A stretch of 36,381 nucleotides of DNA, from assembly GCA_024400995.1 (NCBI GenBank), contig JAKSLU010000015.1, forward strand, positions 1 through 36,381. Reading direction: 5' to 3'. A program made the position numbers and the translations under genes. The DNA is from Bacteroidaceae bacterium (GTDB lineage Bacteria > Bacteroidota > Bacteroidia > Bacteroidales > Bacteroidaceae). The notes beneath the pieces were generated by a model. It made no database searches. It saw only the letters and a list, made by a program, of their open reading frames with translations, and had not been told where the DNA came from. Below are positions 1,935 through 33,950 of the stretch, piece by piece (within the stretch, counting starts at the first letter, position 1; each line of letters opens with the position of its first letter).

Positions 1935-3110
1935 ATGAAGAAACTACTCTTTGGCCTGAGTCTTTTTGCGATGGCCTTGGTGTTTACCGCCAGTCGTTCA
2001 GCCGCCGATGCTCAGCAGCAGAAGCGTCTGGCCGTCTATGGTGTGGCCTTCTATAATCTGGAAAATGCATTTGACACCATCCATGCTCCCGGTAAGAACG
2101 ACTATGAATTCCTGCCCAGCGGCTCTTACAAGTGGACTGGCATGAAGTATCAGGCTAAGCTCACCAATATGAGCAAGGTGCGCTCCCAGCTTTGCACCGA
2201 CAAGCTGAAGGCAGGAGCTGCCGTGATAGGTGTATCCGAGGTGGAGAACCGTGCTGTGGTGGAGGATATCCTCCGTCAGCCCAGCCTCAAGGGTCGTGGC
2301 TACCGCATCCTGCACTATGAGAGTGCTGACCACCGTGGAGTGGAGTGCGCTCTGATTTACAGTCCCCGCTTCTTCCAGCTGGAGGACTCCCTCTACGTGC
2401 CCTACATCTACCCCGAGGACGCCGAGCATAGCAAGGAGCTGCCGCTTGGCTTCACTCAGACTGCTGATGGTACTATCAACGTGTTGCCTCTCTATGGCGA
2501 CACCACACATATCACCCGTGGCTTCCTCGTAGGTGTAGGTCGTATGGCCGGCGAGCGTGTGGCGGTCATTGTCAACCACTGGCCCAGCCGTGGTGCTGCG
2601 AGTCCTATCCGCGAACGTGCAGGCAAGCAAGTGCGCGCCCTCTGCGATGCTCTGGTAAAGCGCTACAAGGGCGATGTCAAGATGATCGTCATGGGAGACC
2701 TCAACGACGATCCCGACAATCTCTCTATGACCGAGGGATTGAAGTGTAAGTTTACTGCTGATAAGCTCACGAGCGACGCAGACCTCTTCAATCCCTGGTA
2801 CCACACGCTGCGCAAGCAGGGACAGGGCACGCTGCTCTACAATGGTCGCTGGAATCTCTTTGACCAGATACTCGTGAGCGGCAATATGGTCAATCGTGAC
2901 TACAATCTGAAGCATCCCAAGAAGCCCAGCGAGCTCGACCTGAGTGGTGGCCTCACGTTCTGGCAGCACGCCATCTTCATGCGTGACTACCTCTTCCAGC
3001 AGGAGGGCAAGTACAAGGGCTCTCCCCTCCGTACCACAGCTGGCGGGGTATGGCTCAATGGCTATAGCGACCACCTGCCCGCGCAGGTGTATCTCATCAA
3101 AGAGATGTAA
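1935..3110 (+). CDS. Secreted endonuclease/exonuclease/phosphatase (EEP) family protein
   Basis: This 391-aa protein has an N-terminal signal peptide (about residues 1-26). An EEP fold follows, related to DNase I, exonuclease III and sphingomyelinase-type phosphodiesterases. Motifs seen: NLEN at 41-44, the metal-binding Glu in SEVEN (E102), NHW at 214-216, GDLNDDPD starting at G254 and the catalytic SDH at 378-380. All the family's catalytic positions therefore appear intact. Family knowledge supports Mg-dependent phosphodiester hydrolysis. The substrate (DNA, RNA or another phosphodiester) cannot be read from sequence. The signal peptide lacks a lipobox, so a periplasmic or secreted enzyme is expected. 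The gene precedes hisS on the same strand with a repeat-filled gap. Similar proteins are often found near TonB/lipoprotein loci, such as the one at 26150-33865. Confidence 0.86.
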   Translation: MKKLLFGLSLFAMALVFTASRSAADAQQQKRLAVYGVAFYNLENAFDTIHAPGKNDYEFLPSGSYKWTGMKYQAKLTNMSKVRSQLCTDKLKAGAAVIGVSEVENRAVVEDILRQPSLKGRGYRILHYESADHRGVECALIYSPRFFQLEDSLYVPYIYPEDAEHSKELPLGFTQTADGTINVLPLYGDTTHITRGFLVGVGRMAGERVAVIVNHWPSRGAASPIRERAGKQVRALCDALVKRYKGDVKMIVMGDLNDDPDNLSMTEGLKCKFTADKLTSDADLFNPWYHTLRKQGQGTLLYNGRWNLFDQILVSGNMVNRDYNLKHPKKPSELDLSGGLTFWQHAIFMRDYLFQQEGKYKGSPLRTTAGGVWLNGYSDHLPAQVYLIKEM

Positions 3111-3115
3111 TCTTT

Positions 3116-3147
3116 AACGATAACGAAAACGATAACGAAAACGATAA
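3116..3147. repeat. 12-bp tandem repeat (AACGATAACGAA)
   Basis: About 2.7 copies of a 12-bp unit sit immediately after the stop codon of the EEP gene. It contains in-frame TAA triplets and belongs to the class of junction repeats seen elsewhere in the window, with a different unit. Confidence 0.8.
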
Positions 3148-3189
3148 TTTAGTAATTCCCCCTACCTCTCTTCGTCATTCTGTCTCGTA

Positions 3190-3240
3190 GGAGTATTCCT
3201 CCCCTTAAGAGGGAGAGATGGCCGAAGGCCGGAGGGGGTC
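3190..3240. repeat. GC-rich inverted intergenic element in the hisS leader
   Basis: The stretch has a CTCCCCTTAAGAGGGAG-type palindrome followed by GGCC-GAA-GGCC and a G-rich tail. It ends about 10 nt before the hisS ATG. It resembles in plan, though not base for base, the element at 16485-16546. Dispersed elements of this kind are familiar from Bacteroidales intergenic regions. Confidence 0.5.
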
Positions 3241-3249
3241 CTCAATCCC

Positions 3250-4611
3250 ATGGCAACACAGAAACCCAGCATCCCTAAGGGCACACGCGACTTCGGTCCC
3301 GTGGAGATGGCCCGCCGCAACTATATCTTCAACACCATCCGTGACGTATATGCCCTCTACGGCTACCGCCAGATAGAGACACCCTCTATGGAGAACCTCT
3401 CCACCCTCATGGGCAAGTATGGCGAGGAGGGCGACAAGCTCCTCTTCAAGATACTCAACTCTGGCGACTTCACCCGTAGCGTCAGCACCCAGCAGTATGA
3501 GGAGATGACAGCTCCCCAGCTCGCTGCCAAGTTCTGCGAAAAGGGCCTGCGCTACGACCTCACCGTGCCCTTTGCTCGCTATGTGGTGCAGCACCGCGAG
3601 GAGTTGCAGATGCCCTTCAAGCGTTTCCAGATACAGCCCGTATGGCGTGCCGACCGTCCGCAGAAGGGCCGCTATCGAGAGTTCTATCAGTGCGATGCCG
3701 ACGTGGTGGGCTCCGACTCCCTCCTCAACGAGGTGGAACTCATGCAGATCGTTGACGAGGTGTATCACCGCTTTGGTGTGCGTGTGGAGATCAAAATAAA
3801 CAACCGCAAGATACTCACTGGTATAGCAGAGGTACTCGGTGCCGCCGACCGCATCGTGGATATCACTGTGGCTATTGACAAGTTTGACAAGATAGGCCTA
3901 GAGGGTGTCAACAAGGAACTGCTGGAGGGTGGCCTCTCTCAGGAGCAGGTCGATATGCTCCAGCCCATCATCACTCTCTCAGGTACCAATGCCGACAAGC
4001 TCGCCACCATGCGCCAGGTGCTCGCTACCTCCGAGACAGGTCTCAAGGGTTGCGACGAGGTGGAGTTTGTGCTGGGTCAGCTCACTGATCTCCGTTCTCC
4101 CATCAGTCTCGACCTAACCCTTGCTCGCGGTCTGAACTACTATACGGGTTGCATCTTCGAGGTCAAGGCCCTCGATGTGGAGATAGGTTCTATCAACGGA
4201 GGTGGCCGCTACGATAACCTCACAGGTATCTTTGGTATGCCCGGCCTCTCCGGTGTGGGAATCTCCTTTGGCGCCGACCGCATCTACGACGTACTCACGC
4301 AGCTCGACCTCTTCCCCAAGGAGACCCAGGGTGGTGCTCGTCTGCTCTTTATCAACTTTGGCGAGAAGGAGGCCGCCTATTGTCTGCAACTGGCCCGCCA
4401 GACTCGTCATGCTGGCATCCCCACCGAGGTCTATCCTGACTCCGCCAAGATGAAGAAGCAGATGCAGTATGCCAATGCCCTCCAGGTGCCCTACGTAGCC
4501 CTCGTTGGCGAGCAGGAGATGGAGGAGGGCCTCATTGCCCTCAAGGATATGGTGACTGGTGAGCAGCTTATGCTTACTATTGAGGAGGTGATTGGTAAAT
4601 TAGCAAATTAG
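3250..4611 (+). CDS. hisS: Histidine--tRNA ligase
   Basis: This 453-aa class II aminoacyl-tRNA synthetase charges tRNA-His with histidine in the cytoplasm. Visible signatures are KGTRDFGP near the N-terminus (motif 1 region), [10 protein letters not shown] followed by [20 protein letters not shown] (motif 2 with its loop and class II arginine), the histidine-specific [18 protein letters not shown] and the motif 3 [12 protein letters not shown]-terminal anticodon-binding domain (about 355-453) begins at [13 protein letters not shown]. Length is normal for the family. The start ATG follows a GC-rich inverted element, and no Shine-Dalgarno is evident. Its last codons (KLAN then TAG) lie inside a tandem repeat that continues to the next gene 19 bp away, suggesting co-transcription. 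Confidence 0.97.
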
Positions 4612-9755: not shown

Positions 9756-9908
9756 ATGGAAAAGAATATAACATTACCTTTCAACGATGCAAAAAGCTTC
9801 GTAGAATGGGCCAAGACCGCCTTGGACAGGAAGAATGTTTATACCGCAAAAATACAGGAAGAATGGAAAGAGCATATTCAAAGACGCCAAGCGATTGAAA
9901 CAATATGA
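9756..9908 (+). CDS. 50-aa small protein coupled to the downstream gene
   Basis: The frame starts MEKNITLPFNDAKSFVEWAK and ends RRQAIETI. It is charged and predicted helical, with no signal peptide or membrane segment. Its TGA overlaps the next ATG in an ATGA arrangement (9905-9908), so translation of the two is probably coupled. Base composition is AT-rich compared with neighbouring genes, as is that of its partner. I do not recognise the family. The layout (short upstream partner, ATGA overlap, longer second gene) is reminiscent of toxin-antitoxin or other two-protein cassettes, but no toxin fold is evident. Translation is supported mainly by the overlap and by coherent coding sequence. Confidence 0.6.
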   Translation: MEKNITLPFNDAKSFVEWAKTALDRKNVYTAKIQEEWKEHIQRRQAIETI

Positions 9909-17627: not shown

Positions 17628-17635
17628 CAAAGGTA
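17628..17635 (-). promoter_or_regulatory. -7 element (TACCTTTG) of ruvB
   Basis: The minus strand reads TACCTTTG and ends only 9 nt before the ATG, implying a leader of a few bases at most. An identical copy stands at 17705-17712 within the direct repeat. Confidence 0.6.
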
Positions 17636-17730
17636 CGAATAAGTGAGCGAAATACCAAATTTATTTGAGTATTTCCGAACGTGAGTACCTAAGAGATGTA
17701 GTCTCAAAGGTACGAATAAGTGAGCGAAAT
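17628..17730. repeat. 26-bp perfect direct repeat carrying the ruvB -7 element
   Basis: Positions 17628-17653 and 17705-17730 are identical over 26 bp. Each begins CAAAGGTACGAATAAG. The spacing is 77 bp start to start. Each copy contains TACCTTTG on the minus strand. Confidence 0.9.
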
Positions 17731-24858: not shown

Positions 24859-25473
24859 ATGAATACCCTCCCTCCCATACTCCAGGTGGGCGATGTGCTC
24901 ATCTCCTCCGATATCATCACAGAGCAGTTCTGCTGTGATCTCTTTGCCTGCCACGGGGCGTGCTGCGTGGAGGGCGATGCTGGTGCACCCGTCACTCTCG
25001 ATGAGGTGGCACAGCTGGAGGACCGCGTGGATGAGGTATGGGATCGCCTCTCTGCAGGTGCCAAAGCTGAAATCAACGCCCATGGTATAGCCTACACAGA
25101 TCAAGAGGGAGACCTCGTGACCAGTATAGTAGATGGTGGCGACTGCGTCTTTACCTTTAAGAGCGCTGAGGAACAGGATTGTGGGAACTACAAGATACCG
25201 CAGGGTTGCACGCTCTGTCTGGTGGAAGACACTAAACCCATCAGTTGCGCGCTCTATCCTATCAGAGAAAAGAACTTTGGTGGAACTGTCTGTCTCAACT
25301 ACCATCGCTGGGCCGTATGCCGCGATGCCGTCAGGTTGGGGCGTGAGTTGCGCATGCCAGTCTATAAGTTCCTACGCGGACCGCTCATCCGCCGCTTTGG
25401 TGAGGAGTGGTATGAGGAACTCTGCGAGGTGGCAGAGCAGATCACTTCTTCTCAAAGTGTTGGTAGTCTTTGA
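24859..25473 (+). CDS. DUF3109 family cysteine-rich protein
   Basis: This 204-aa cytoplasmic protein matches the Bacteroidota DUF3109 family. Cys-rich motifs are visible: FCCDLFACHGACCVEGDAGAPV near residues 24-45, GGDCVF, DCGNYKIPQGCTLCLVEDTKPISCALYPI and a following HRWAVCRDA. The cysteine pattern suggests a bound Fe-S cluster or metal, as in YkgJ-type CxxCxxxCC proteins. The biochemical role is unknown. It probably ends the plus-strand run from topA. Its 3' end overlaps the converging M15-type gene by 32 bp. Confidence 0.88.
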   Translation: MNTLPPILQVGDVLISSDIITEQFCCDLFACHGACCVEGDAGAPVTLDEVAQLEDRVDEVWDRLSAGAKAEINAHGIAYTDQEGDLVTSIVDGGDCVFTFKSAEEQDCGNYKIPQGCTLCLVEDTKPISCALYPIREKNFGGTVCLNYHRWAVCRDAVRLGRELRMPVYKFLRGPLIRRFGEEWYEELCEVAEQITSSQSVGSL

Positions 25474-26053
25474 CCTTTGGCCAGTCTCCTCCCCAGGTAA
25501 ATCCATGAGCGCGAAAGAGCCGATAGGCCAAGTCGCGGTGAGTGATACGCGGTGTGCGTTTGGCGCCCCGTGGCAGGACGACGTTGCCCTTGACGTAGGG
25601 ATTCCACAGCGGGTTGATATCAATGGCCAACCCAAGGCCATGGAGGGAGATGCGCCCAGTCTTGGACCCCGTCATGCGACGATAGTTGAAACATGACGTG
25701 TTGTTGGCCTCCATGGAACGTTCATCACTTGCTCCATACTCATCTACCAGACGGATGGATGCTATGCGGTACTGTGCTCTATAGAGGGAGTCGAAGATGG
25801 CGAGCACATCGCTGGCTATACGCTTGTTGACTACCATCTCGCCCCGTTGTGTACGACCCTCTGCATCGCAATATAGCAGACGTAGATGGCGGAGTTCGGC
25901 ACGGAGGGAGGAGGGTGTATCGGACTTCCATGAGCCACCAGCCTTCATTCGCAGGATGAGGGAGTCACTAAGAGTATCGGAGCGGAAGTCCTGGGCTAGG
26001 GCACAAATGGAAATGCCCCAAAATAGGGTTAGGATGAGATGTATTTTGCGCAT
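25442..26053 (-). CDS. M15-type zinc peptidase (D-Ala-D-Ala carboxypeptidase-like), exported
   Basis: This 203-aa protein has a signal peptide (about 1-21, CALAQ). The C-terminal peptidase core has the M15/LAS metal motif SLHGLGLAIDIN (H138, D145) and the downstream DYQHFE (H199), so all three zinc ligands are present. RRMTGSKTGRIS before the first His is also family-like. Peptidoglycan stem-peptide trimming in the periplasm is expected from family knowledge; the exact cleavage is unknown. A TACCTTTG element ends 7 nt before the ATG, so the mRNA may be essentially leaderless. The gene diverges from the TonB receptor gene and converges on the DUF3109 gene. Confidence 0.87.
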   Translation of the reverse strand: MRKIHLILTLFWGISICALAQDFRSDTLSDSLILRMKAGGSWKSDTPSSLRAELRHLRLLYCDAEGRTQRGEMVVNKRIASDVLAIFDSLYRAQYRIASIRLVDEYGASDERSMEANNTSCFNYRRMTGSKTGRISLHGLGLAIDINPLWNPYVKGNVVLPRGAKRTPRITHRDLAYRLFRAHGFTWGGDWPKVKDYQHFEKK

Positions 26054-26112: not shown

Positions 26113-26120
26113 TAACTTTG
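26113..26120 (+). promoter_or_regulatory. -7 element (TAACTTTG) of the TonB receptor/nuclease locus
   Basis: TAACTTTG matches TAnnTTTG 29 nt before the ATG at 26150. It is the only clear promoter seen for the five-gene locus. Confidence 0.6.
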
Positions 26121-26149: not shown

Positions 26150-28864
26150 ATGAGTAAAGGTGTAATCCTAATGGCAGCCGCTTTCGCCTTAACCTTCAGT
26201 CAGGTCCAGGCCCAGACAGAGGCTGTCGTTGACTCCCTGTCGCAGGATAATGCCGACTTTACCTTTACGGAGTCACAGCTTGACGAGGATAATGATGCTG
26301 CGCAGACGGTGTCCAATGTTCAGGGTAATGACCCCTATTTGAGTGAAGTAGGCTATGCTTTCAGTGCTATGCGCTTCAGGGTGCGTGCACTGGACAATCA
26401 GTACAACCAGACCTATATCAACGGTCTGCAGATATTCGATACAGAGAGTGGTCGCTTTAACTACAGCAGCGTAGGTGGCCTCAATGATGCTACCCGCAAC
26501 AAGGAGGGCATCGGCTTTGGTCAGGTGGCCAACTATGGCATCAGCGATGTAGGCGGAGCACAGAGTATCAACATGCGAGCCTCTCAGATAGCTGCTGGTA
26601 GTAAACTCTCGGTGAGCGCCTGCAACCGCAACTATGTGGGCCGTGTTATGTTCACCCATGCTACGGGCTATAACAAGAATGGCTGGGCCTTTGCTGGAAG
26701 TGCTGGCTACCGTGGCGCTCCTATGGGATGGGGTAACGTGCCAGGTACTTTCTACAACTCCTTTAGCTATTTTTTGGCTGCGCAGAAGCGTCTCAATAGC
26801 CAGAATGAACTTAGTCTCGTGACCTATGGTGCTCCAACGGAGCGCGCTCAGCAGGGAGCAAGCACCGAGGAGGTGTATGCTCTAGCCAATAGTCACTACT
26901 ACAATCCCAACTGGGGTTATCAAGGCGGCAAGAAGCGCAGTGCCCGCGTGGTCAATAGCTTTGATCCTACCGCCATATTTACCTGGGACTGGAAGAGCCT
27001 CGATGGTACTAAGAAGGTAACGACCAACGCTGGCTTCCACTACTCTATGTATGCCAGCTCTGCTCTGGGCTGGAGCGGCGACGCCTATGACCCTCGTCCA
27101 GACTACTACAAGAACTTGCCCTCCAGCATCTTCGACGTGTACGATCCCACCAAGAACAACGCTCAGTACCTGGAGGAGAACCCCCACATCCTCGACCAGT
27201 GGAACTACCTCTACAGTTACTGGACAAGCGATGAGGCGCATCGCCAGATTAACTGGGATCGTATGTACTACGTCAATCGTCAGAATGGGGGTGAGGCTCT
27301 CTACTATATGGAGAACCGTCACAACGATCAGATGACGACTGCGCTGTCCTCGACCTTCAACCACAGCGTTGATACCCACAACAAGTATGCTCTCGGTGTA
27401 CAGCTCAATACCACCAAGGGCATGCACTACAAGACGATGAACGACCTCCTAGGAGCTCAGTACTATACGGATATCGACAAGTTCGCCTCCAACGACTACG
27501 GTGCAAGTAGCCCCGAGGCTCAGAACGACCTGCTGCATCCCAATCGCCGTATCCAGGTGGGTGACACCTTTGGCTATAACTACAACATCTTTGTGCACAA
27601 GGCCCGCGTCTGGGGACAGTATGAGCACAACAATGGCCCCTGGTATGCTGCCGTGTCCGGTCACCTAGATGGTACCATCATGGAGCGCGAGGGTCTGATG
27701 CAGAATGGCCGCTACGTGGACTATAGCTACGGCAAGAGCGGCGCCGCCAAGTTCCTGAGTGGTGGTGCCAAGGTGACCGTGGCCTGGAGCCCCAACCCCA
27801 ATCACCGCATTCAGCTCACTAACACCCGCGATAGCCGTGCTCCCGAGGCGCGCAACTCCTTTGTGGCCCCCCGCGTGCAGAACAACTACGTGAACAACCT
27901 CAAGGTGGAGCAGATCATGAGCACCGAGCTGAGCTACAAGTTTGTCTTCGGCAAATTCAGCGGTAAGGTGGGTGGTTATCACGCCTACTTCAAGAACGGT
28001 GTAGAGCAGACAGCCTTCTACAATGACCAGCAGAGTACGTTTACCTATCTCACCATGTCGGGCGTGGATCGTCGCCACTATGGCGTAGAGGCCGCCTTCA
28101 ACCTGCAGGTGACCAGCTCTCTCAGCTTCCATCTGCTCGGTACCTATGGCGAGGCCAAGTACATCAGCAATCCCTATGCTCAACTCAATCCGGAGGGTAG
28201 CGAGGCCAAGGAGATTGCCAAACTCAACACCTACCAGGTGACGCACACTCAGGCAGACAACAGCGAGCTTGTCGTGAAGGACGATCTCTGCGTAGTAGCA
28301 GATGGCATGCGTGTAGGCGGAACACCCCTCACTGCTGTGACGCTGGGTGTGAAGTACAATGTGAGCGGCTGGTTTTTCCAGCTCAACGCCAACTACTATG
28401 ATCGCGTATATCTCGCCTTCAGTCCCTATCAGCGCCTCAACAAGACCTACGCTACTGCAGGCAAGGTGCACTTCCCCGTCAACGGCAATCAGTATGATGT
28501 GACCAAGGCCGAGGTAGAGCGCGAGGGTGGTATCCTCTATGACAACAATGGCCGTATCGTGGCCTCCTACGCCAAGGAACAGGAGAAGTTCAAGGGCGGC
28601 TTTATGCTCGATGCCTCTATTGGCAAGTACATCCGCATGCGCCACGGCAAGAGCCTGAGCATCAACCTCAGTCTGCAGAACATCACCAACAACACCAAGA
28701 TGAAGACAGGTGGCTATGAGCAGAACCGCGACGACTTCTACTACACAGAGAGCGGCGGTCAGTACACCAAGGGCGAGGGCAAGGCCTACAGCTTCAGCCA
28801 CAACCCCAAGTACTACTATGCCTTCCCCTTCAACTTCTTCCTCAACATCGGCTTCAAGTTCTGA
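26150..28864 (+). CDS. TonB-dependent receptor (SusC-like barrel, no SusD partner)
   Basis: This 904-aa outer-membrane receptor has a signal peptide ending at QVQAQ (about 22). No N-terminal carboxypeptidase-like domain is present. After an acidic linker, a plug-like region (about 50-150) contains DPYLSEVGYAFSAMRFRVRALDNQYNQTYINGLQIFD, corresponding to the plug segment with its INGL turn. The rest is alternating aromatic strands typical of a 22-strand barrel, closing NFFLNIGFKF with terminal Phe. It resembles the non-SusC/D TonB receptors in Bacteroidota that are followed by DUF5689-type lipoproteins. Import substrate cannot be read from sequence. Neighbours (two secreted nucleases, OB-fold-like lipoproteins) suggest nucleic-acid-derived material. 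It is the first gene of a co-directional locus, with the next ATG 15 bp downstream. Confidence 0.85.
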   Translation: MSKGVILMAAAFALTFSQVQAQTEAVVDSLSQDNADFTFTESQLDEDNDAAQTVSNVQGNDPYLSEVGYAFSAMRFRVRALDNQYNQTYINGLQIFDTESGRFNYSSVGGLNDATRNKEGIGFGQVANYGISDVGGAQSINMRASQIAAGSKLSVSACNRNYVGRVMFTHATGYNKNGWAFAGSAGYRGAPMGWGNVPGTFYNSFSYFLAAQKRLNSQNELSLVTYGAPTERAQQGASTEEVYALANSHYYNPNWGYQGGKKRSARVVNSFDPTAIFTWDWKSLDGTKKVTTNAGFHYSMYASSALGWSGDAYDPRPDYYKNLPSSIFDVYDPTKNNAQYLEENPHILDQWNYLYSYWTSDEAHRQINWDRMYYVNRQNGGEALYYMENRHNDQMTTALSSTFNHSVDTHNKYALGVQLNTTKGMHYKTMNDLLGAQYYTDIDKFASNDYGASSPEAQNDLLHPNRRIQVGDTFGYNYNIFVHKARVWGQYEHNNGPWYAAVSGHLDGTIMEREGLMQNGRYVDYSYGKSGAAKFLSGGAKVTVAWSPNPNHRIQLTNTRDSRAPEARNSFVAPRVQNNYVNNLKVEQIMSTELSYKFVFGKFSGKVGGYHAYFKNGVEQTAFYNDQQSTFTYLTMSGVDRRHYGVEAAFNLQVTSSLSFHLLGTYGEAKYISNPYAQLNPEGSEAKEIAKLNTYQVTHTQADNSELVVKDDLCVVADGMRVGGTPLTAVTLGVKYNVSGWFFQLNANYYDRVYLAFSPYQRLNKTYATAGKVHFPVNGNQYDVTKAEVEREGGILYDNNGRIVASYAKEQEKFKGGFMLDASIGKYIRMRHGKSLSINLSLQNITNNTKMKTGGYEQNRDDFYYTESGGQYTKGEGKAYSFSHNPKYYYAFPFNFFLNIGFKF

Positions 28865-28879
28865 TGCCTAAACGACTCT

Positions 28880-29842
28880 ATGACTATGCGTAAGATATAT
28901 TACTTCCTTGCCATGCTCACGGGCACAATGGCGCTTACGGGCTGTATGGACAATACCGAGGAACCCAACACCGATGACTTTGTCATCACCAGCCCTACCT
29001 CCATCGGCGAGACCAATACGACCATCTATCAGGTCAAGAAGGAGTTCAGCTCCTATATGACCAACAACAATACCGACGTGAAGGTGGAGCGCGACCTCAT
29101 CTTCGAGGGTGTGGTTGTCGCTAACGATGATGGCGGCAATCTCTACCAGACGCTCATCCTCCGCGACATCAATCCCAAGGCCACAGGCGATGCACACGAC
29201 CAGTGCATCCAGGTGGGCATCCGCAACAGCTGGCTCTCTCCCTATTTCAAGCGCGGCCAGCGTGTCAAGATCAACCTCAATGGTCTCTGGGTAGGTAACT
29301 ACAGCAAGGTGCCCAAGATAGGCCAGCCCTATTACACCTCTGCCGGCAATCGCCGTCTGGGTCCGATGCTCTTTGATATGTGTGCCACTAACATTGAGCT
29401 TGTTGGTGCCCCCAATCCTGATGCTCCTGAGCTGACTCCCATAGACTGCACACAGGGCGAGGGACTGTCGTGGCTCAAGGACTCCAAGAACCAGAACCCC
29501 ATGAACGCACCCCGTCTCGTCACCGTCAAGGGTAAGATAGCCGAGGTGCAGGGCAGCAAGGTCAAGTATGCCGATACTGGCGAACTCTCTGGCGAGAAGG
29601 AGCCCCTCCCCAAGGTCTTTGCGCCCGAGGCACTCTACGACGCAGGTTATGCCGTGGATCGTACCCTCCTCGTGAGTGGTGCCAGCAGTCTGAGCATGAC
29701 CATCCGCACCAGTACGCAGAACGATATCAGCTTCCTGCCCATCCCCGACGATGAGCGCAGCTATACTGGCGTGATGACCTACTATAGCGGCTGGCAGATG
29801 CAGCTCCGCCACAAGGACGACATCTATCCCGCAATCAAATAA
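28880..29842 (+). CDS. DUF5689-like surface lipoprotein
   Basis: This 320-aa protein has a lipoprotein signal peptide with lipobox LTGC (Cys22) followed by acidic residues (MDNTEE). The body contains two OB-fold-like halves. The first includes VERDLIFEGVVVANDDGGNLYQTLILRD and RGQRVKINLNGLWVGNYSKVPKIG; the second begins LVTVKGKIAEVQG. This is the pattern I associate with DUF5689. OB-type folds commonly bind nucleic acid or glycans, but no ligand is proven. Alternative starts (ATG ACT ATG) differ by two codons. Its tight position after the TonB receptor suggests it serves the receptor as a SusD substitute; that is inference. Confidence 0.8.
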   Translation: MTMRKIYYFLAMLTGTMALTGCMDNTEEPNTDDFVITSPTSIGETNTTIYQVKKEFSSYMTNNNTDVKVERDLIFEGVVVANDDGGNLYQTLILRDINPKATGDAHDQCIQVGIRNSWLSPYFKRGQRVKINLNGLWVGNYSKVPKIGQPYYTSAGNRRLGPMLFDMCATNIELVGAPNPDAPELTPIDCTQGEGLSWLKDSKNQNPMNAPRLVTVKGKIAEVQGSKVKYADTGELSGEKEPLPKVFAPEALYDAGYAVDRTLLVSGASSLSMTIRTSTQNDISFLPIPDDERSYTGVMTYYSGWQMQLRHKDDIYPAIK

Positions 29843-29925
29843 GGCCTATCAAACAAGGCCATCGAAAAGAGGCCTACTGTTATATTAGTATTCCCCCATC
29901 CTTAGACAATAAAATACACAACAAT

Positions 29926-31557
29926 ATGAAGACTCTCAAGAACATCTTCTCCGTGGCCCTCTTGGCTACAGCCTTAGTAGCCTGCGAGGACGTCCCCATG
30001 CCCTATGAGATCAATATGGGCGAGGATGAACCCGAAACCTCCGTTTACTACTCCAGCACAGCTCTCAACAATGGTTGGAAACTCCAGGCTGAGGGCGTAG
30101 AGCAACTCCAGCCCTGGAGCCAGGGTAGCAGTTACACTCAGGCTACTGGCTATCAGGACTGGGAAGGCACTGGCACCAAGAGCAATAAGGAGGTGACCGG
30201 CTGGCTCATCTCTCCCGCCTTCCATACCGTGGCAGAGACGGGCAAGGTCAAGTTCTACTTTGACTACACCCTCCGCTACACCAACAACGTGAGCGGTTAT
30301 GCCAACAACCACAAGGTGTATGTCACTGACAACTACACCGGCGACGCGACCACAACTACCTGGACAGAACTCAGCTGGAAGCCCAGTCCCTCTGCCTATA
30401 GCGACTGGACGACCTACGGCTCTGGCGACATCCAGCTGCCCAGTGAGTTCGTCAACAAGGAGGGTGTGCACATAGCCTTCTGGTTCCATGCCCCTGCCAA
30501 TGCTTCTACCACATGGGAGCTCCTCAACTTCTATCTTGAGGAGGGCGTAGCTGGTGAACAGGGCGGCAACGAGGGTGGTGATACCCCCGATACCAGTGTC
30601 AACGGCGTGCCCTATACCAGTGCCTCTCTGCAGGAAGGCTGGAAGACTTGGGCAGCCTCTGGCAAGAACAATCCTTGGAGCCAGGGTAGTAGCTACACCC
30701 AGGCCACAGGCTATCAGAAGTGGAGTGGCGACAGCAAGAGCAATCGCGAGGTGGATGGCTATCTCATCTCTCCTGCCTTCAACACTACCGTAGCCAGCGG
30801 CAAGGTCAAGATGTCCTTTGACAACTGCGTGGGCTATGCAGCCAACGACCCCGACTATGCCAAGCACGTCAAGCTCTATATCAGTAAGACCGCCGATGGT
30901 ACCAACTTCAATGCCGCAGAGTGGGAGCAGCTCGACTGGACAGCTACCCATGAGAGCACCAACTGGACTCTCTCTACTGATGAGGTGCAGCTGCCCGAGG
31001 CATACGTCAACCAGGAGAACGTGCATGTAGCCTTCTGGTTCTACGCTCCCGCCGACAAGTCCTCTACCTTTGAACTCAAGACCTTCAAGCTCCTTGAGGG
31101 TGAGGCAGGTCAGCCTGCTCCTGATGGTGGCGAGGGTGGTGATGCCCACGACACGGGCGATGCCGACCTGGTCATCCAGGCCAGCGCTCTCGGTCTGGCT
31201 AATGCTACAGAGGTCAATGGTGTGAACTATCAGGGCTTCAGCTTCACGGCTGATGGCGGTGGCAACCAGAATACTCCCAAGTACTACACCTCAGGCTCCG
31301 CTATCCGCATGTACCCCAAGAACAGTCTAACCCTCACTACCGACAAGACTGTAGATAAGGTAGTCCTGACCTGCGTAGGCGGTAGCGTAGCCAACGGCAA
31401 CGTGGGCTCTACTCCTGGCACCGTTGAGGTGAAGGACCCCACCGTGACGATCAGCGGCATCAATGCCAAGAGCTTCACCATCACCGACAACGATGGTAGC
31501 ACTGGTTCTGCCTCACAGATCCGCATTGTGTCCATTGCGGTATATTATGCCAAGTAA
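29926..31557 (+). CDS. Lipoprotein with duplicated choice-of-anchor-J-like modules
   Basis: This 543-aa protein has a signal peptide with lipobox LVAC (Cys20) followed by EDVPMPYE. Two homologous modules follow, about residues 40-210 and 226-394. Each has NPWSQGSSYTQATGYQ or its equivalent, then (V/G)(T/D)GYLISPAF, a beta-strand stretch, WTxxxxE(V/I)QLP and NVH(V/I)AFW(F)YAPA. This is the choice-of-anchor-J/DUF5017-type jelly-roll pattern. A third, different beta domain (about 408-543) contains VNGVNYQGFSFTADGGG and TDKTVDKVVLTCVGG. Its C-terminus is followed without a gap by the nuclease ATG (TAA then ATG). Binding of an extracellular ligand for the locus is plausible; the ligand is unknown. 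Confidence 0.78.
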   Translation: MKTLKNIFSVALLATALVACEDVPMPYEINMGEDEPETSVYYSSTALNNGWKLQAEGVEQLQPWSQGSSYTQATGYQDWEGTGTKSNKEVTGWLISPAFHTVAETGKVKFYFDYTLRYTNNVSGYANNHKVYVTDNYTGDATTTTWTELSWKPSPSAYSDWTTYGSGDIQLPSEFVNKEGVHIAFWFHAPANASTTWELLNFYLEEGVAGEQGGNEGGDTPDTSVNGVPYTSASLQEGWKTWAASGKNNPWSQGSSYTQATGYQKWSGDSKSNREVDGYLISPAFNTTVASGKVKMSFDNCVGYAANDPDYAKHVKLYISKTADGTNFNAAEWEQLDWTATHESTNWTLSTDEVQLPEAYVNQENVHVAFWFYAPADKSSTFELKTFKLLEGEAGQPAPDGGEGGDAHDTGDADLVIQASALGLANATEVNGVNYQGFSFTADGGGNQNTPKYYTSGSAIRMYPKNSLTLTTDKTVDKVVLTCVGGSVANGNVGSTPGTVEVKDPTVTISGINAKSFTITDNDGSTGSASQIRIVSIAVYYAK

Positions 31558-32490
31558 ATGAGACTCTACAAAAGACTAACCTACATTCTCATCGCCGCAC
31601 TGCCCCTCATCGTGAGCAGTTGCGGCGATGATGATGATGGCATTGGCTGGGCCAGCGGCTCTGGTACCCCCTCTGGGTACAAGGCTCCGACGTCCGTCAC
31701 CAGCCGTATGGAGTGCCCGCGTCTCAAGGGCGATGCCAACGAGCAGCTCATAGCCCACTGGACTACCAACCTGAGTCGAGACTCCATTATGACCTACTGC
31801 CTGGCCTATGACCTGCAGAAGCGCCACTCCCGCTGGGTGGCCTTCCGCTATGATGCCCAGACTCGCGACCGCGCCGTTGGTCGCTGGTATGCCGGCAAGG
31901 GCGAGGTTCAGTACCCGCAGGACCCCAGCGTGCCCAATGCCAATGCCCTGCCTGGTGATGCCCTCTACGGCTCAGGCTACAACCACGGCCATCTCTGTGC
32001 CTCGCAGGAGCGATTGTACTCCCAGCAGGCCAACAAGCAGACCTTCTATATGACCAATATGTCGCCCCAGCTAGGAGCCTTCAATCAGGGCTACTGGGTC
32101 ACTCTGGAGAACCAAGTAAACTCTCTGGGACGCGATAAGAACTTTGCAGATACGCTCTATGTCGTCAAGGGTGGCACAATCACCGAAGGCAAGATACTGC
32201 GCACCCTGACGCTGGCAGGAGGCCGACAGATGCCTGTGCCCAAATACTACTACATGGCTCTGCTCAAGGTCAAGAACGGCGTCTATTCCTCCATCGCCTT
32301 CATGATGGAGCACAAGCAGTATGGTTACTCCAACGCCCATCAGGCCCCCCTCTCTGAGATGGTGCAGCACGCCATGACGGTCAATGAGCTGGAGCAGCAG
32401 ACCGGCATAGACTTCTTCTGCAATCTGCCCGACAGTCAGGAAGAGAGCATCGAGTCGCAGCGCTCCACCTCTGCGTGGGGCGTCAAGTAA
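31558..32490 (+). CDS. DNA/RNA non-specific endonuclease, surface lipoprotein
   Basis: This 310-aa protein is a beta-beta-alpha metal nuclease of the Serratia/NucA family. A lipobox VSSC (Cys22) is followed at once by GDDDDG, an acidic stretch like the lipoprotein export signal that sends Bacteroidota lipoproteins to the cell surface. Catalytic map by alignment of motifs: NHGHLCAS with general-base His145, TNMSPQ with N167, FNQGYW with the metal-binding N176, and E184. These match Serratia H89, N110, N119 and E127 in spacing. The usual DRGH motif is NHGH, with the Arg replaced by His. The ATG directly follows the preceding stop, indicating coupling. It is a paralogue of the next gene. Extracellular DNA/RNA cleavage is predicted. 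Confidence 0.9.
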   Translation: MRLYKRLTYILIAALPLIVSSCGDDDDGIGWASGSGTPSGYKAPTSVTSRMECPRLKGDANEQLIAHWTTNLSRDSIMTYCLAYDLQKRHSRWVAFRYDAQTRDRAVGRWYAGKGEVQYPQDPSVPNANALPGDALYGSGYNHGHLCASQERLYSQQANKQTFYMTNMSPQLGAFNQGYWVTLENQVNSLGRDKNFADTLYVVKGGTITEGKILRTLTLAGGRQMPVPKYYYMALLKVKNGVYSSIAFMMEHKQYGYSNAHQAPLSEMVQHAMTVNELEQQTGIDFFCNLPDSQEESIESQRSTSAWGVK

Positions 32491-32521
32491 CAGAATGTAA
32501 ACCTACACTCAGACCACATAC

Positions 32522-33865
32522 ATGACACGATTATATAGCCTCCTCCTGAGCGCACTTCTCTGCATTACGACGCTGGCAGCCAGAGCCCAGGTGGACTTTA
32601 TAGATATCACCCTCAACAGCGGTAGCCGAGTGAGCTACCCCATAGCCAGCGTAGAGAGCGTCAGCTTCCACACTGAGGCTGCGCCTGGTGATGGTAGTTA
32701 TGAGCATCCTTACAGCGTGGCTGAGGCCCTTGTGGCCTATCTCTCCCAGACGGCGGCCCAGCAGGTGTGGGTCAAGGGCGTTATCGTCGGCAGCGTGCAG
32801 GGTTCCTACTACAGCGATGCCACCTTGGCTCTCGAAGGCTCCCCCGCCTCCAATCTGCTGCTGGCCGACACGCGCTGGGAGACGGCTTCAGGCCGCTGTC
32901 TGCCTCTGCAGCTGCCCACTGGTGCGGTGCGCAAGGCTCTCAACCTGCAGGATAACCCTGATAACTTCCACCACGAACTACTCGTATATGCCACCCTAGA
33001 CAAGTACTTTGGCGTGGCAGGTCTCAAGTCTCCCTCGCAGTATGAGCTCGGTCCACTGGCCAGCGATATCGTGCAGGGTAGTGCGCAGCATCCCGGACGC
33101 ATGGAGGTGCCTGCCCTCGTCAGTGGCGATGAGTTTGTGGTGCATCAGGCCTTTGTGACCGACCAGACCACTCAGCGCGTCCCCAACTTCTATGTGAGCT
33201 ACTCCCCCGCTCTGCACCACAGCCATTGGGTGGCCTTTCGCTTTGACGACAAGACCCGCCCCAAGAACACTACCCGCAGCGAGGGTAGCAGCTATCCCCA
33301 GGATCCCGACTGCGCCTCCTCTCTGCCCACTACCGCCTTTGCAGGCACGGGCTACGACCATGGCCACCTCTGTGCCTCGGCTGATCGTCTCTATTCCTCT
33401 AAGGCCAATGAGCAGACCTTCTACATGACCAACATGTCGCCCCAGCTACCCCAGTTCAATCGAACCTACTGGAACTACTACGAGACGTATGTGCAGACTA
33501 TAGGTCGCGATGAGGCCTTTGCCGATACGCTCTATGTGGTCAAGGGAGGCACCATAGCCGATGGTCAGGTGGAAAGACAGCTCTCGTGCAATGGCATCCA
33601 GGTCCCTGTGCCCAAGTACTATTTTATGGCCCTGCTCAAGGTCAAAGACCAGCAGTACAGTGCTATGGCCTTCTGGATGGACCACAAGGAGTACGATACT
33701 GTGAAAGACAAGAACGCCGAACTAGCCGCCTATGCCGTCAGCATTGATGAGTTGGAGAGGCTGACGGGCTTTGACTTCTTCCCCTGTCTGCCAGCAGCCA
33801 CCGAGCAGAGCGTAGAGGGCCAACTCCGCCTGACGGATTGGAACCTGCCCGAAATCCAGCGGTAG
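32522..33865 (+). CDS. DUF6359 (OB-fold-like)-DNA/RNA non-specific endonuclease fusion, secreted
   Basis: This 447-aa protein has a signal peptide (about 1-23, ending ARAQ), with no lipobox. A short N-terminal beta segment (IDITLNSGSRVSYPI...VESVSFHTE) is followed by a DUF6359-like OB-type domain (about 57-170: YSVAEALVAYLSQTAAQQVW, VKGVIVGSVQGSYY, LPLQLPTGAVRKALNL). The nuclease domain runs from about 180 to 447. Its active-site residues are DHGH with His282, TNMSPQ N304, FNRTYW N313 and E321, with spacing identical to the neighbouring paralogue and to Serratia nuclease. Again Arg of DRGH is His. A non-lipidated soluble or exported enzyme next to a lipidated one suggests division of labour between released and tethered nuclease. 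It ends the locus, 154 bp before gyrB. Confidence 0.88.
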   Translation: MTRLYSLLLSALLCITTLAARAQVDFIDITLNSGSRVSYPIASVESVSFHTEAAPGDGSYEHPYSVAEALVAYLSQTAAQQVWVKGVIVGSVQGSYYSDATLALEGSPASNLLLADTRWETASGRCLPLQLPTGAVRKALNLQDNPDNFHHELLVYATLDKYFGVAGLKSPSQYELGPLASDIVQGSAQHPGRMEVPALVSGDEFVVHQAFVTDQTTQRVPNFYVSYSPALHHSHWVAFRFDDKTRPKNTTRSEGSSYPQDPDCASSLPTTAFAGTGYDHGHLCASADRLYSSKANEQTFYMTNMSPQLPQFNRTYWNYYETYVQTIGRDEAFADTLYVVKGGTIADGQVERQLSCNGIQVPVPKYYFMALLKVKDQQYSAMAFWMDHKEYDTVKDKNAELAAYAVSIDELERLTGFDFFPCLPAATEQSVEGQLRLTDWNLPEIQR

Positions 33866-33918: not shown

Positions 33919-33950
33919 TTTGGCCATGTTTCAGGAAATGGCTAACTTTG
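33919..33950 (+). promoter_or_regulatory. gyrB: gyrB promoter (TTTG-N20-TAACTTTG)
   Basis: TTTG at 33919-33922 and TAACTTTG at 33943-33950 are separated by 20 bp, the full Bacteroidota -33/-7 consensus with ideal spacing. The predicted leader is about 65 nt and contains a 12-bp palindrome at 33958-33969. Confidence 0.8.

Follow-up and report, generated by a model that had tools for sequence, protein, structure and literature searches.

A TonB receptor locus with linked nucleases in a Bacteroidaceae bacterium, a candidate system for nucleic-acid uptake

INTRODUCTION

To our knowledge, the route by which DNA passes the outer membrane in Bacteroidota is an open question. The available parts of the literature describe in Riemerella anatipestifer a gene pair formed by RA0C_RS04915, a barrel with a carboxypeptidase-regulatory domain, and RA0C_RS04920, with DUF5689, DUF5017 and choice-of-anchor J domains; markerless deletion of either gene brought transformation below detection (limit about 4e-10, versus 5e-5), and homologues of RS04915 were reported only in Flavobacteriaceae (PMC8459023). 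The tonBA and tonBB mutants of this species also transform less, and the authors ascribe the tonBB effect to iron (PMC8383284). Here we analyzed a 36,381-nucleotide stretch of a Bacteroidaceae bacterium (assembly GCA_024400995.1, contig JAKSLU010000015.1, positions 1 to 36,381), hereafter the window, with a five-gene operon for a TonB-type outer-membrane receptor, a DUF5689 lipoprotein, a jelly-roll lipoprotein and two Endonuclease_NS nucleases.

Three other reports, likewise as far as their available parts go, bear on such a combination. ExeM carries two OB-like regions, a lamin-tail domain (LTD) and an EEP domain, and deletion of the OB-like part nearly abolishes its activity (PMC6085458). 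Flavobacterium johnsoniae induces at low phosphate both the PusCD proteins, which belong to TonB systems resembling polysaccharide utilisation loci, and the Endonuclease I-family enzymes EndA1 and EndA2 (PMC8115612). Finally, extracellular nucleases are prevalent among the Bacteroidota of sediment metagenomes, in a study whose text does not contain the word TonB (PMC8289736).

RESULTS

The receptor and the DUF5689 lipoprotein are related to a transformation pair

The operon is made of five co-directional genes, located where a preliminary description of the window had placed them (Table 1) and separated by gaps of 15, 83, 0 and 31 bases. We consider it probable that this locus is an outer-membrane nucleic-acid uptake system, in which the receptor and the DUF5689 protein would be the counterpart of the module that serves transformation in R. 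anatipestifer, and scavenging would be the likeliest main use. As an orthology test, we searched the family of a genome that holds an M949_1556 lipoprotein above the curated cut-off of its subfamily (NCBIfam NF052645, 475 bits). The genome G308 shows on a 2,164,087-base contig the order recA, four genes, comEC, two genes, an Exo_endo_phos_3 (EEP) nuclease gene, the receptor and the DUF5689 lipoprotein, with the EEP gene divergent from the receptor. Counting tags in fives, which we take to be the RA0C_RS convention, from recA as RS04870, comEC becomes RS04895, the EEP gene RS04910, the receptor RS04915 and the lipoprotein RS04920. The tags printed for recA, comEC and the pair in the available part of PMC8459023 agree with this count, and from the gene order we infer that G308 represents R. 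anatipestifer, with RS04910 as its EEP gene. The G308 lipoprotein scored 599 bits on NF052645, with a choice-of-anchor J match and a weak DUF5017 match, and the G308 receptor has a CarboxypepD_reg domain, in agreement with the published description of the pair (PMC8459023).

The window receptor is 26% identical to that of G308 over 882 residues (E 5e-72), and the window DUF5689 protein is 31% identical to the G308 lipoprotein over 226 residues (E 9e-13). By way of this gene order, the two window proteins appear to be orthologous to RA0C_RS04915 and RA0C_RS04920. In the receptor tree, 32 locus receptors form one clade apart from five paralogs, with a support of 100/100, and the R. anatipestifer-type receptor falls inside the clade. 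The distant TonB receptor paralogs (L066-L070), which form a separate clade, showed no Endonuclease_NS or EEP neighbour in their available flanks, these being full in two of the five. Receptor matches were found in 48 of 61 genomes, in five (G046, G049, G051-G053) as distant paralogs only. Regarding 18 genomes of the same class, the best match to the window receptor gave E values from 5.8e-57 to 2e-117, with the next other receptor at 1.7e-16 or weaker, and this best match adjoins a DUF5689 lipoprotein gene in 17 of them (in G077 the two lie on different contigs).

The preliminary description had presented the receptor as SusC-like and lacking SusD. Profile searches with SusD and SusC/RagA models gave no match in any of the five genes. 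The Plug domain of the window receptor scored 14 bits versus a Pfam gathering threshold of 23.9; two other locus receptors, those of G089 and G060, attain 26 bits. CarboxypepD_reg is present in the receptors of L223 and L226 and gave no match by profile search in the window receptor, nor any in that of Flammeovirga; it is not a constant feature of the receptor clade. A sequence search of the PDB with the receptor returned no match up to E 1.

The OB-like and duplicated jelly-roll folds proposed earlier for the two lipoproteins were recovered by fold prediction (Table 1). The window DUF5689 lipoprotein scored 47.3 bits on NF052645 and ranks, by this score, as a homologue outside the curated subfamily. 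No NCBIfam match to choice-of-anchor J appeared in it up to E 1, and the jelly-rolls are found in the separate, third protein of the operon.

Among the named loci listed, the closest to that of the window is L160, from horse faeces, with 71% identity, and the close named relatives are metagenome-assembled Bacteroidaceae and Prevotellaceae from herbivore guts. Seven genomes with the same genus label (G017, G015, G031, G013, G027, G035 and G002; loci L052, L054-L056 and L060-L062) carry a deeply diverged locus with 35-40% receptor identity, an Endonuclease_NS gene upstream and, where tested, a fimbrillin domain; these loci resemble that of Bacteroides finegoldii and hint at replacement or exchange of the locus. 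A Bacteroidales-type copy with 42% receptor identity also occurs on a contig titled Eggerthellaceae bacterium UBA5906 (L164), probably a mislabelled or contaminated bin. Besides, the plasmid collection gave six records with a receptor match, which in two cases was weak (23%). These records measure from 21 kb to 1.8 Mb and are without exception typed as non-mobilizable; three supplied annotated loci, and among the six we saw no sign of mobile carriage.

Nucleases lie near the receptor in most loci

We measured the linkage between nucleases and receptor in four sets of loci. The congeneric set takes 20 of the 21 window-type loci with a nearly complete receptor (L002-L022), leaving out G011, which lies at a contig start, as well as split or partial receptor copies. 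Fifteen more divergent loci make the second set, among them those of seven further congeneric genomes that carry the diverged type. Since the same-class set was picked through the lipoprotein, it gives no independent DUF5689 count; it has 20 loci (35 genomes matched), of which L133 holds no receptor, giving n=19. For the set of named loci we kept the best 80 out of 589 confirmed stretches; several of them are on the same contigs as congeneric loci (e.g. L141 and L034), so the sets are not additive.

With a limit of 6.5 kb from the receptor, a nuclease of the Endonuclease_NS or EEP family was found in 20/20 congeneric, 13/15 divergent, 15/19 same-class and 78/80 named loci. The linkage of nuclease and receptor anticipated in the preliminary description is conserved, and the outcome which that description had named as refuting, no linkage, was not found. 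Endonuclease_NS is the partner in 19 of the congeneric loci and EEP in 14, while the divergent set gave 8 and 13, respectively, and the named loci 47 and 71, with both families in 40; the 15 same-class loci with a nuclease all have EEP. In three of the four sets EEP outnumbers Endonuclease_NS. DUF5689 follows within 2 kb downstream of the receptor in all 20 congeneric loci and in 78 of the 80 named ones.

In order to contextualize these values, we took as a control the 110 Plug-type receptors listed in five genomes, two of which are locus receptors. Only one of the other 108 lies within 6.5 kb of an Endonuclease_NS or EEP match, and one further non-locus receptor is at 6.96 kb, whereas the five locus receptors of the same genomes are all 347-744 bases from such a match (control distances run from the Plug match and not from the gene, and the Plug list is incomplete, as three of the five locus receptors are not in it).

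The linkage occurs in Bacteroidales, in same-class genomes outside this order and in Cytophagales, with varying layouts. Endonuclease_NS lies downstream in the genus of the window, and EEP is divergent and upstream in many other loci. In B. finegoldii, an Endonuclease_NS fused to a fimbrillin domain is found upstream and EEP downstream. Aureibacter tunicatorum presents the order receptor, DUF5689, DUF5689, Endonuclease I, EEP, EEP, and Flammeovirga kamogawensis the order EEP, EEP, receptor, a DUF5689-DUF6359-LTD protein and a DUF5689-Endonuclease I fusion (L225:12855-15047). Three partner families, Endonuclease_NS, Exo_endo_phos_3 and Endonuclease I, have thus been recruited at the receptor locus, and two are fused to its accessory domains: Endonuclease I to DUF5689 in Flammeovirga, and Endonuclease_NS to DUF6359 in the second nuclease of the window. 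Such repeated recruitment and fusion to the same accessory domains would have no easy explanation if nucleic acid were not what the receptor handles.

The nucleases carry export signals

The two Endonuclease_NS genes scored 136.5 and 148 bits on PF01223 (gathering threshold 23) and are 47% identical to each other. When aligned to EXOG and NucA their active-site motifs coincide, with the catalytic His and the metal Asn present, as expected from the intact catalytic residues already described. A lipobox was found in 59 of 80 Endonuclease_NS open reading frames, 51 of these 59 carrying two acidic residues or more downstream of the Cys, and was missing from 102 of 114 EEP open reading frames (both counts include repeated contigs). 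We take such acidic residues to be a localisation signal.

The EEP gene of the window is the sole one found in G000, the genome of the window, which is 68% complete. In the window (1935-4611) it precedes a histidyl-tRNA synthetase-like gene of 453 aa, and in the congeneric loci L034, L037, L042 and L048 a divergent EEP gene adjoins the receptor and is followed by a gene of 454-476 aa. If the latter is the synthetase-like gene, both genes may have been relocated in the lineage of the window.

Boundaries of the operon

The operon is flanked by a divergent M15-peptidase gene (25442-26053) on one side and by gyrB on the other. Exact matches to the Bacteroides-type promoter consensus given in Table 1, on which the -7 box listed there is also based, occur three times in the window versus 0.18 expected: at 9847-9882 (-), 17628-17659 (-) and, ahead of gyrB, 33919-33950 (+). 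The second nuclease gene is probably the end of the operon, because gyrB has this promoter match of its own. Scans of the window for tRNA and Rfam families gave no match; those for sigma-70-type promoters and terminators were uninformative and were set aside.

Table 1. Features of the operon and related elements in the window
Feature	Coordinates	Strand	Remarks
TonB-type outer-membrane receptor, 904 aa	26150..28864	+	signal peptide and C-terminal aromatic end, both read by eye
DUF5689 lipoprotein	28880..29842	+	predicted OB fold, residues 30-188; probably a second one
Jelly-roll lipoprotein: two jelly-rolls (MAM/cleaved-adhesin type), then a further beta-rich part as the third	29926..31557	+	
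Endonuclease_NS nuclease, predicted lipoprotein	31558..32490	+	PF01223 1.4e-39; lipobox; Cys then GDDDDG
DUF6359 and Endonuclease_NS nuclease, plain signal peptide (periplasmic or released)	32522..33865	+	PF19886 1.6e-29, PF01223 4.3e-43; no lipobox
Exo_endo_phos_3 (EEP) nuclease, usual partner of this receptor type	1935..3110	+	PF19580 4.6e-84; 23 kb from the operon
Possible -7 box TAACTTTG of the operon	26113..26120	+	by eye; no TTTG at -33
Bacteroides-type promoter match ahead of gyrB (34020)	33919..33950	+	exact match to TTTG-N18-24-TANNTTTG

DISCUSSION

According to these results, nucleic acid is a well-supported substrate of the locus, both by the nuclease linkage and by the homology to the transformation pair. 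In the mechanism that we propose, the DUF5689 protein, through its OB fold, and the jelly-roll lipoprotein would keep DNA (or RNA) from outside the cell bound at the receptor, where it would be cut by the surface-anchored Endonuclease_NS, and the receptor, energised by TonB, would carry it through the outer membrane. The nuclease with the plain signal peptide and the EEP enzyme would then complete the degradation, in the periplasm or outside. In this model the nucleases and lipoproteins are placed according to their export signals (lipobox, acidic residues, plain signal peptides). With a surface nuclease added, scavenging of nucleotides, phosphate or nucleosides would be the likeliest main use here, and a nutritional purpose appears plausible. 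The analysis is built on homology and gene order, linkage, predicted folds and export signals, and from these we infer the orthology (via gene order), DNA binding, transport through the receptor, the order of cutting and the nutritional purpose. The surface nuclease favours a use as food, and the kinship to the transformation pair favours the passage of some long DNA. The interpretation given in the preliminary description is thus partly supported: it had the substrate and the linkage, and it missed the transformation pair and the EEP family as the commoner partner.

Several observations weigh against the uptake system that we propose. In 13 of the 61 relatives, including the congeneric G005, G016 and G018, the receptor search gave no match, and the locus is therefore not essential. 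The distance to the G308 pair is large (see the identities above). Each of the 29 genomes tested has EEP genes, whether it carries the locus or not, and no Endonuclease_NS or EEP neighbour was seen in 2/15 divergent, 4/19 same-class and 2/80 named loci; L064, L126, L129, L130, L136 and L218 lack one despite full flanks. OB and MAM-type folds also serve other ligands, and the second OB fold is only probable. Surface nucleases would destroy transforming DNA, so that food and gene uses are partly in conflict. Besides, we found in the literature no binding, cutting, uptake or growth experiments on these proteins, nor any expression data for this locus.

One could argue that the receptor serves mainly natural transformation, importing intact DNA for ComEC while the nucleases trim or regulate its entry. 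We regard this as unlikely, although it keeps an appreciable share of the probability through the homology and gene order in common with the essential R. anatipestifer pair and through recA and comEC, which in G308, G322 and G333 are no more than 12 kb away from the receptor. The competence genes are also in line with it, as 28 of 29 genomes gave a ComEC match (G000 among them, as two segments) and all of 21 a DprA match, but these near-universal genes occur as well in genomes without the locus (G039, G054, G058 and G059), and no ComEC match lies near the receptor in the 29 genomes searched (places compared by eye). A single genome, G038 (99% complete), has the receptor, DUF5689 and EEP but no ComEC match, and a surface-anchored nuclease argues against intact DNA. 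Being near-universal, the competence genes were uninformative as a discriminator and were dropped.

Far less probable is a reading in which biofilm or DNA traps are the target of the nucleases, while the import of some other ligand by the receptor is merely co-expressed. The domain fusions, the pairing with three nuclease families and the transformation phenotype of the related receptor all argue against it, even though, in the available parts of the sources, NucA and NucD of Prevotella intermedia are DNases acting on biofilm and neutrophil traps (PMC12568770) and M949_1556 of R. anatipestifer is reported under antigenicity and pathogenicity (title cited in PMC12566107). The results on P. intermedia may be irrelevant to the locus: in its relative Prevotella nigrescens an Endonuclease_NS gene has no annotated TonB receptor within 9 kb. 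On the second replicon of P. nigrescens (L224:6833-9882), the Endonuclease_NS gene lies beside a gene for a 577-aa protein without similarity to the jelly-roll protein, and on account of this neighbourhood we abandoned the idea that NucD of P. intermedia is a member with experimental data. Many TonB receptors of Bacteroidota serve iron, haem or glycan, but an ordinary receptor of this kind with nucleases nearby by chance is scarcely credible, given the control receptors of the same genomes and the taxonomic span of the linkage. Iron depletion strongly induces a TonB receptor of Porphyromonas gingivalis that is accompanied by a DUF4876 protein (PG1019-1022; PMC10434189). This would fit that explanation, but the protein bears a different label; this system, like the other regulated TonB systems in the available parts of PMC10434189 and PMC8115612, is set apart as another type by label only.

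Returning to the uptake system, its core is a relative of the transformation pair, which is known but has been little studied, and the nuclease linkage is apparently new. Among the top matches listed from open-access full texts, we found no account of the receptor with nucleases or in Bacteroidales. A receptor family described only from Flavobacteriaceae is now traced into Bacteroidales and Cytophagales and tied to nucleases. The result is a family of candidate nucleic-acid receptors that can be tested in common gut bacteria, of interest for gene exchange, for phosphate and nucleoside nutrition and for DNA turnover in gut and rumen. More tentatively, and with slightly more doubt than belief, we suggest that Bacteroidota move DNA across the outer membrane by means of a dedicated TonB receptor and an OB-fold lipoprotein, and not by a type IV pilus and secretin; this module would be spread across the phylum, and the gut and rumen branch would have turned it into DNA foraging in the manner of a polysaccharide utilisation locus by recruiting surface nucleases.

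Among known systems, F. johnsoniae PusCD and EndA resemble the locus as TonB systems of polysaccharide utilisation type and as Endonuclease I-family nucleases, but there, in the available part of PMC8115612, the EndA genes are listed as orphans and a Pi-induced TonB receptor (Pi, inorganic phosphate), Fjoh_0545, is of the pf14905 type, another than that of the window. As for ExeM and NucH of Shewanella and Vibrio, similar parts occur as separate genes at the receptor loci, including LTD in Flammeovirga, and the G308 EEP protein gives a weak trace of NF033681 (22 bits versus 300); ExeM is, in contrast, a single protein, and the available part of PMC6085458 does not mention a linked TonB receptor. 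The likeness to a polysaccharide utilisation locus (SusC/SusD) noted in the preliminary description is confined to the layout, in which one operon joins a TonB receptor with lipoproteins and degradative enzymes; SusD and a SusC/RagA match are lacking and the enzymes are nucleases. Finally, with the R. anatipestifer pair, whose nuclease neighbours find no mention in the available part of PMC8459023, the window shares a receptor of the same clade and an adjoining DUF5689 lipoprotein in the same order; G308 has in addition a choice-of-anchor J domain and, as divergent neighbour, an EEP nuclease. The window differs from the pair in that its jelly-roll is separate and doubled, its receptor has no detected CarboxypepD_reg, its EEP gene is distant, and two Endonuclease_NS genes form part of its operon.

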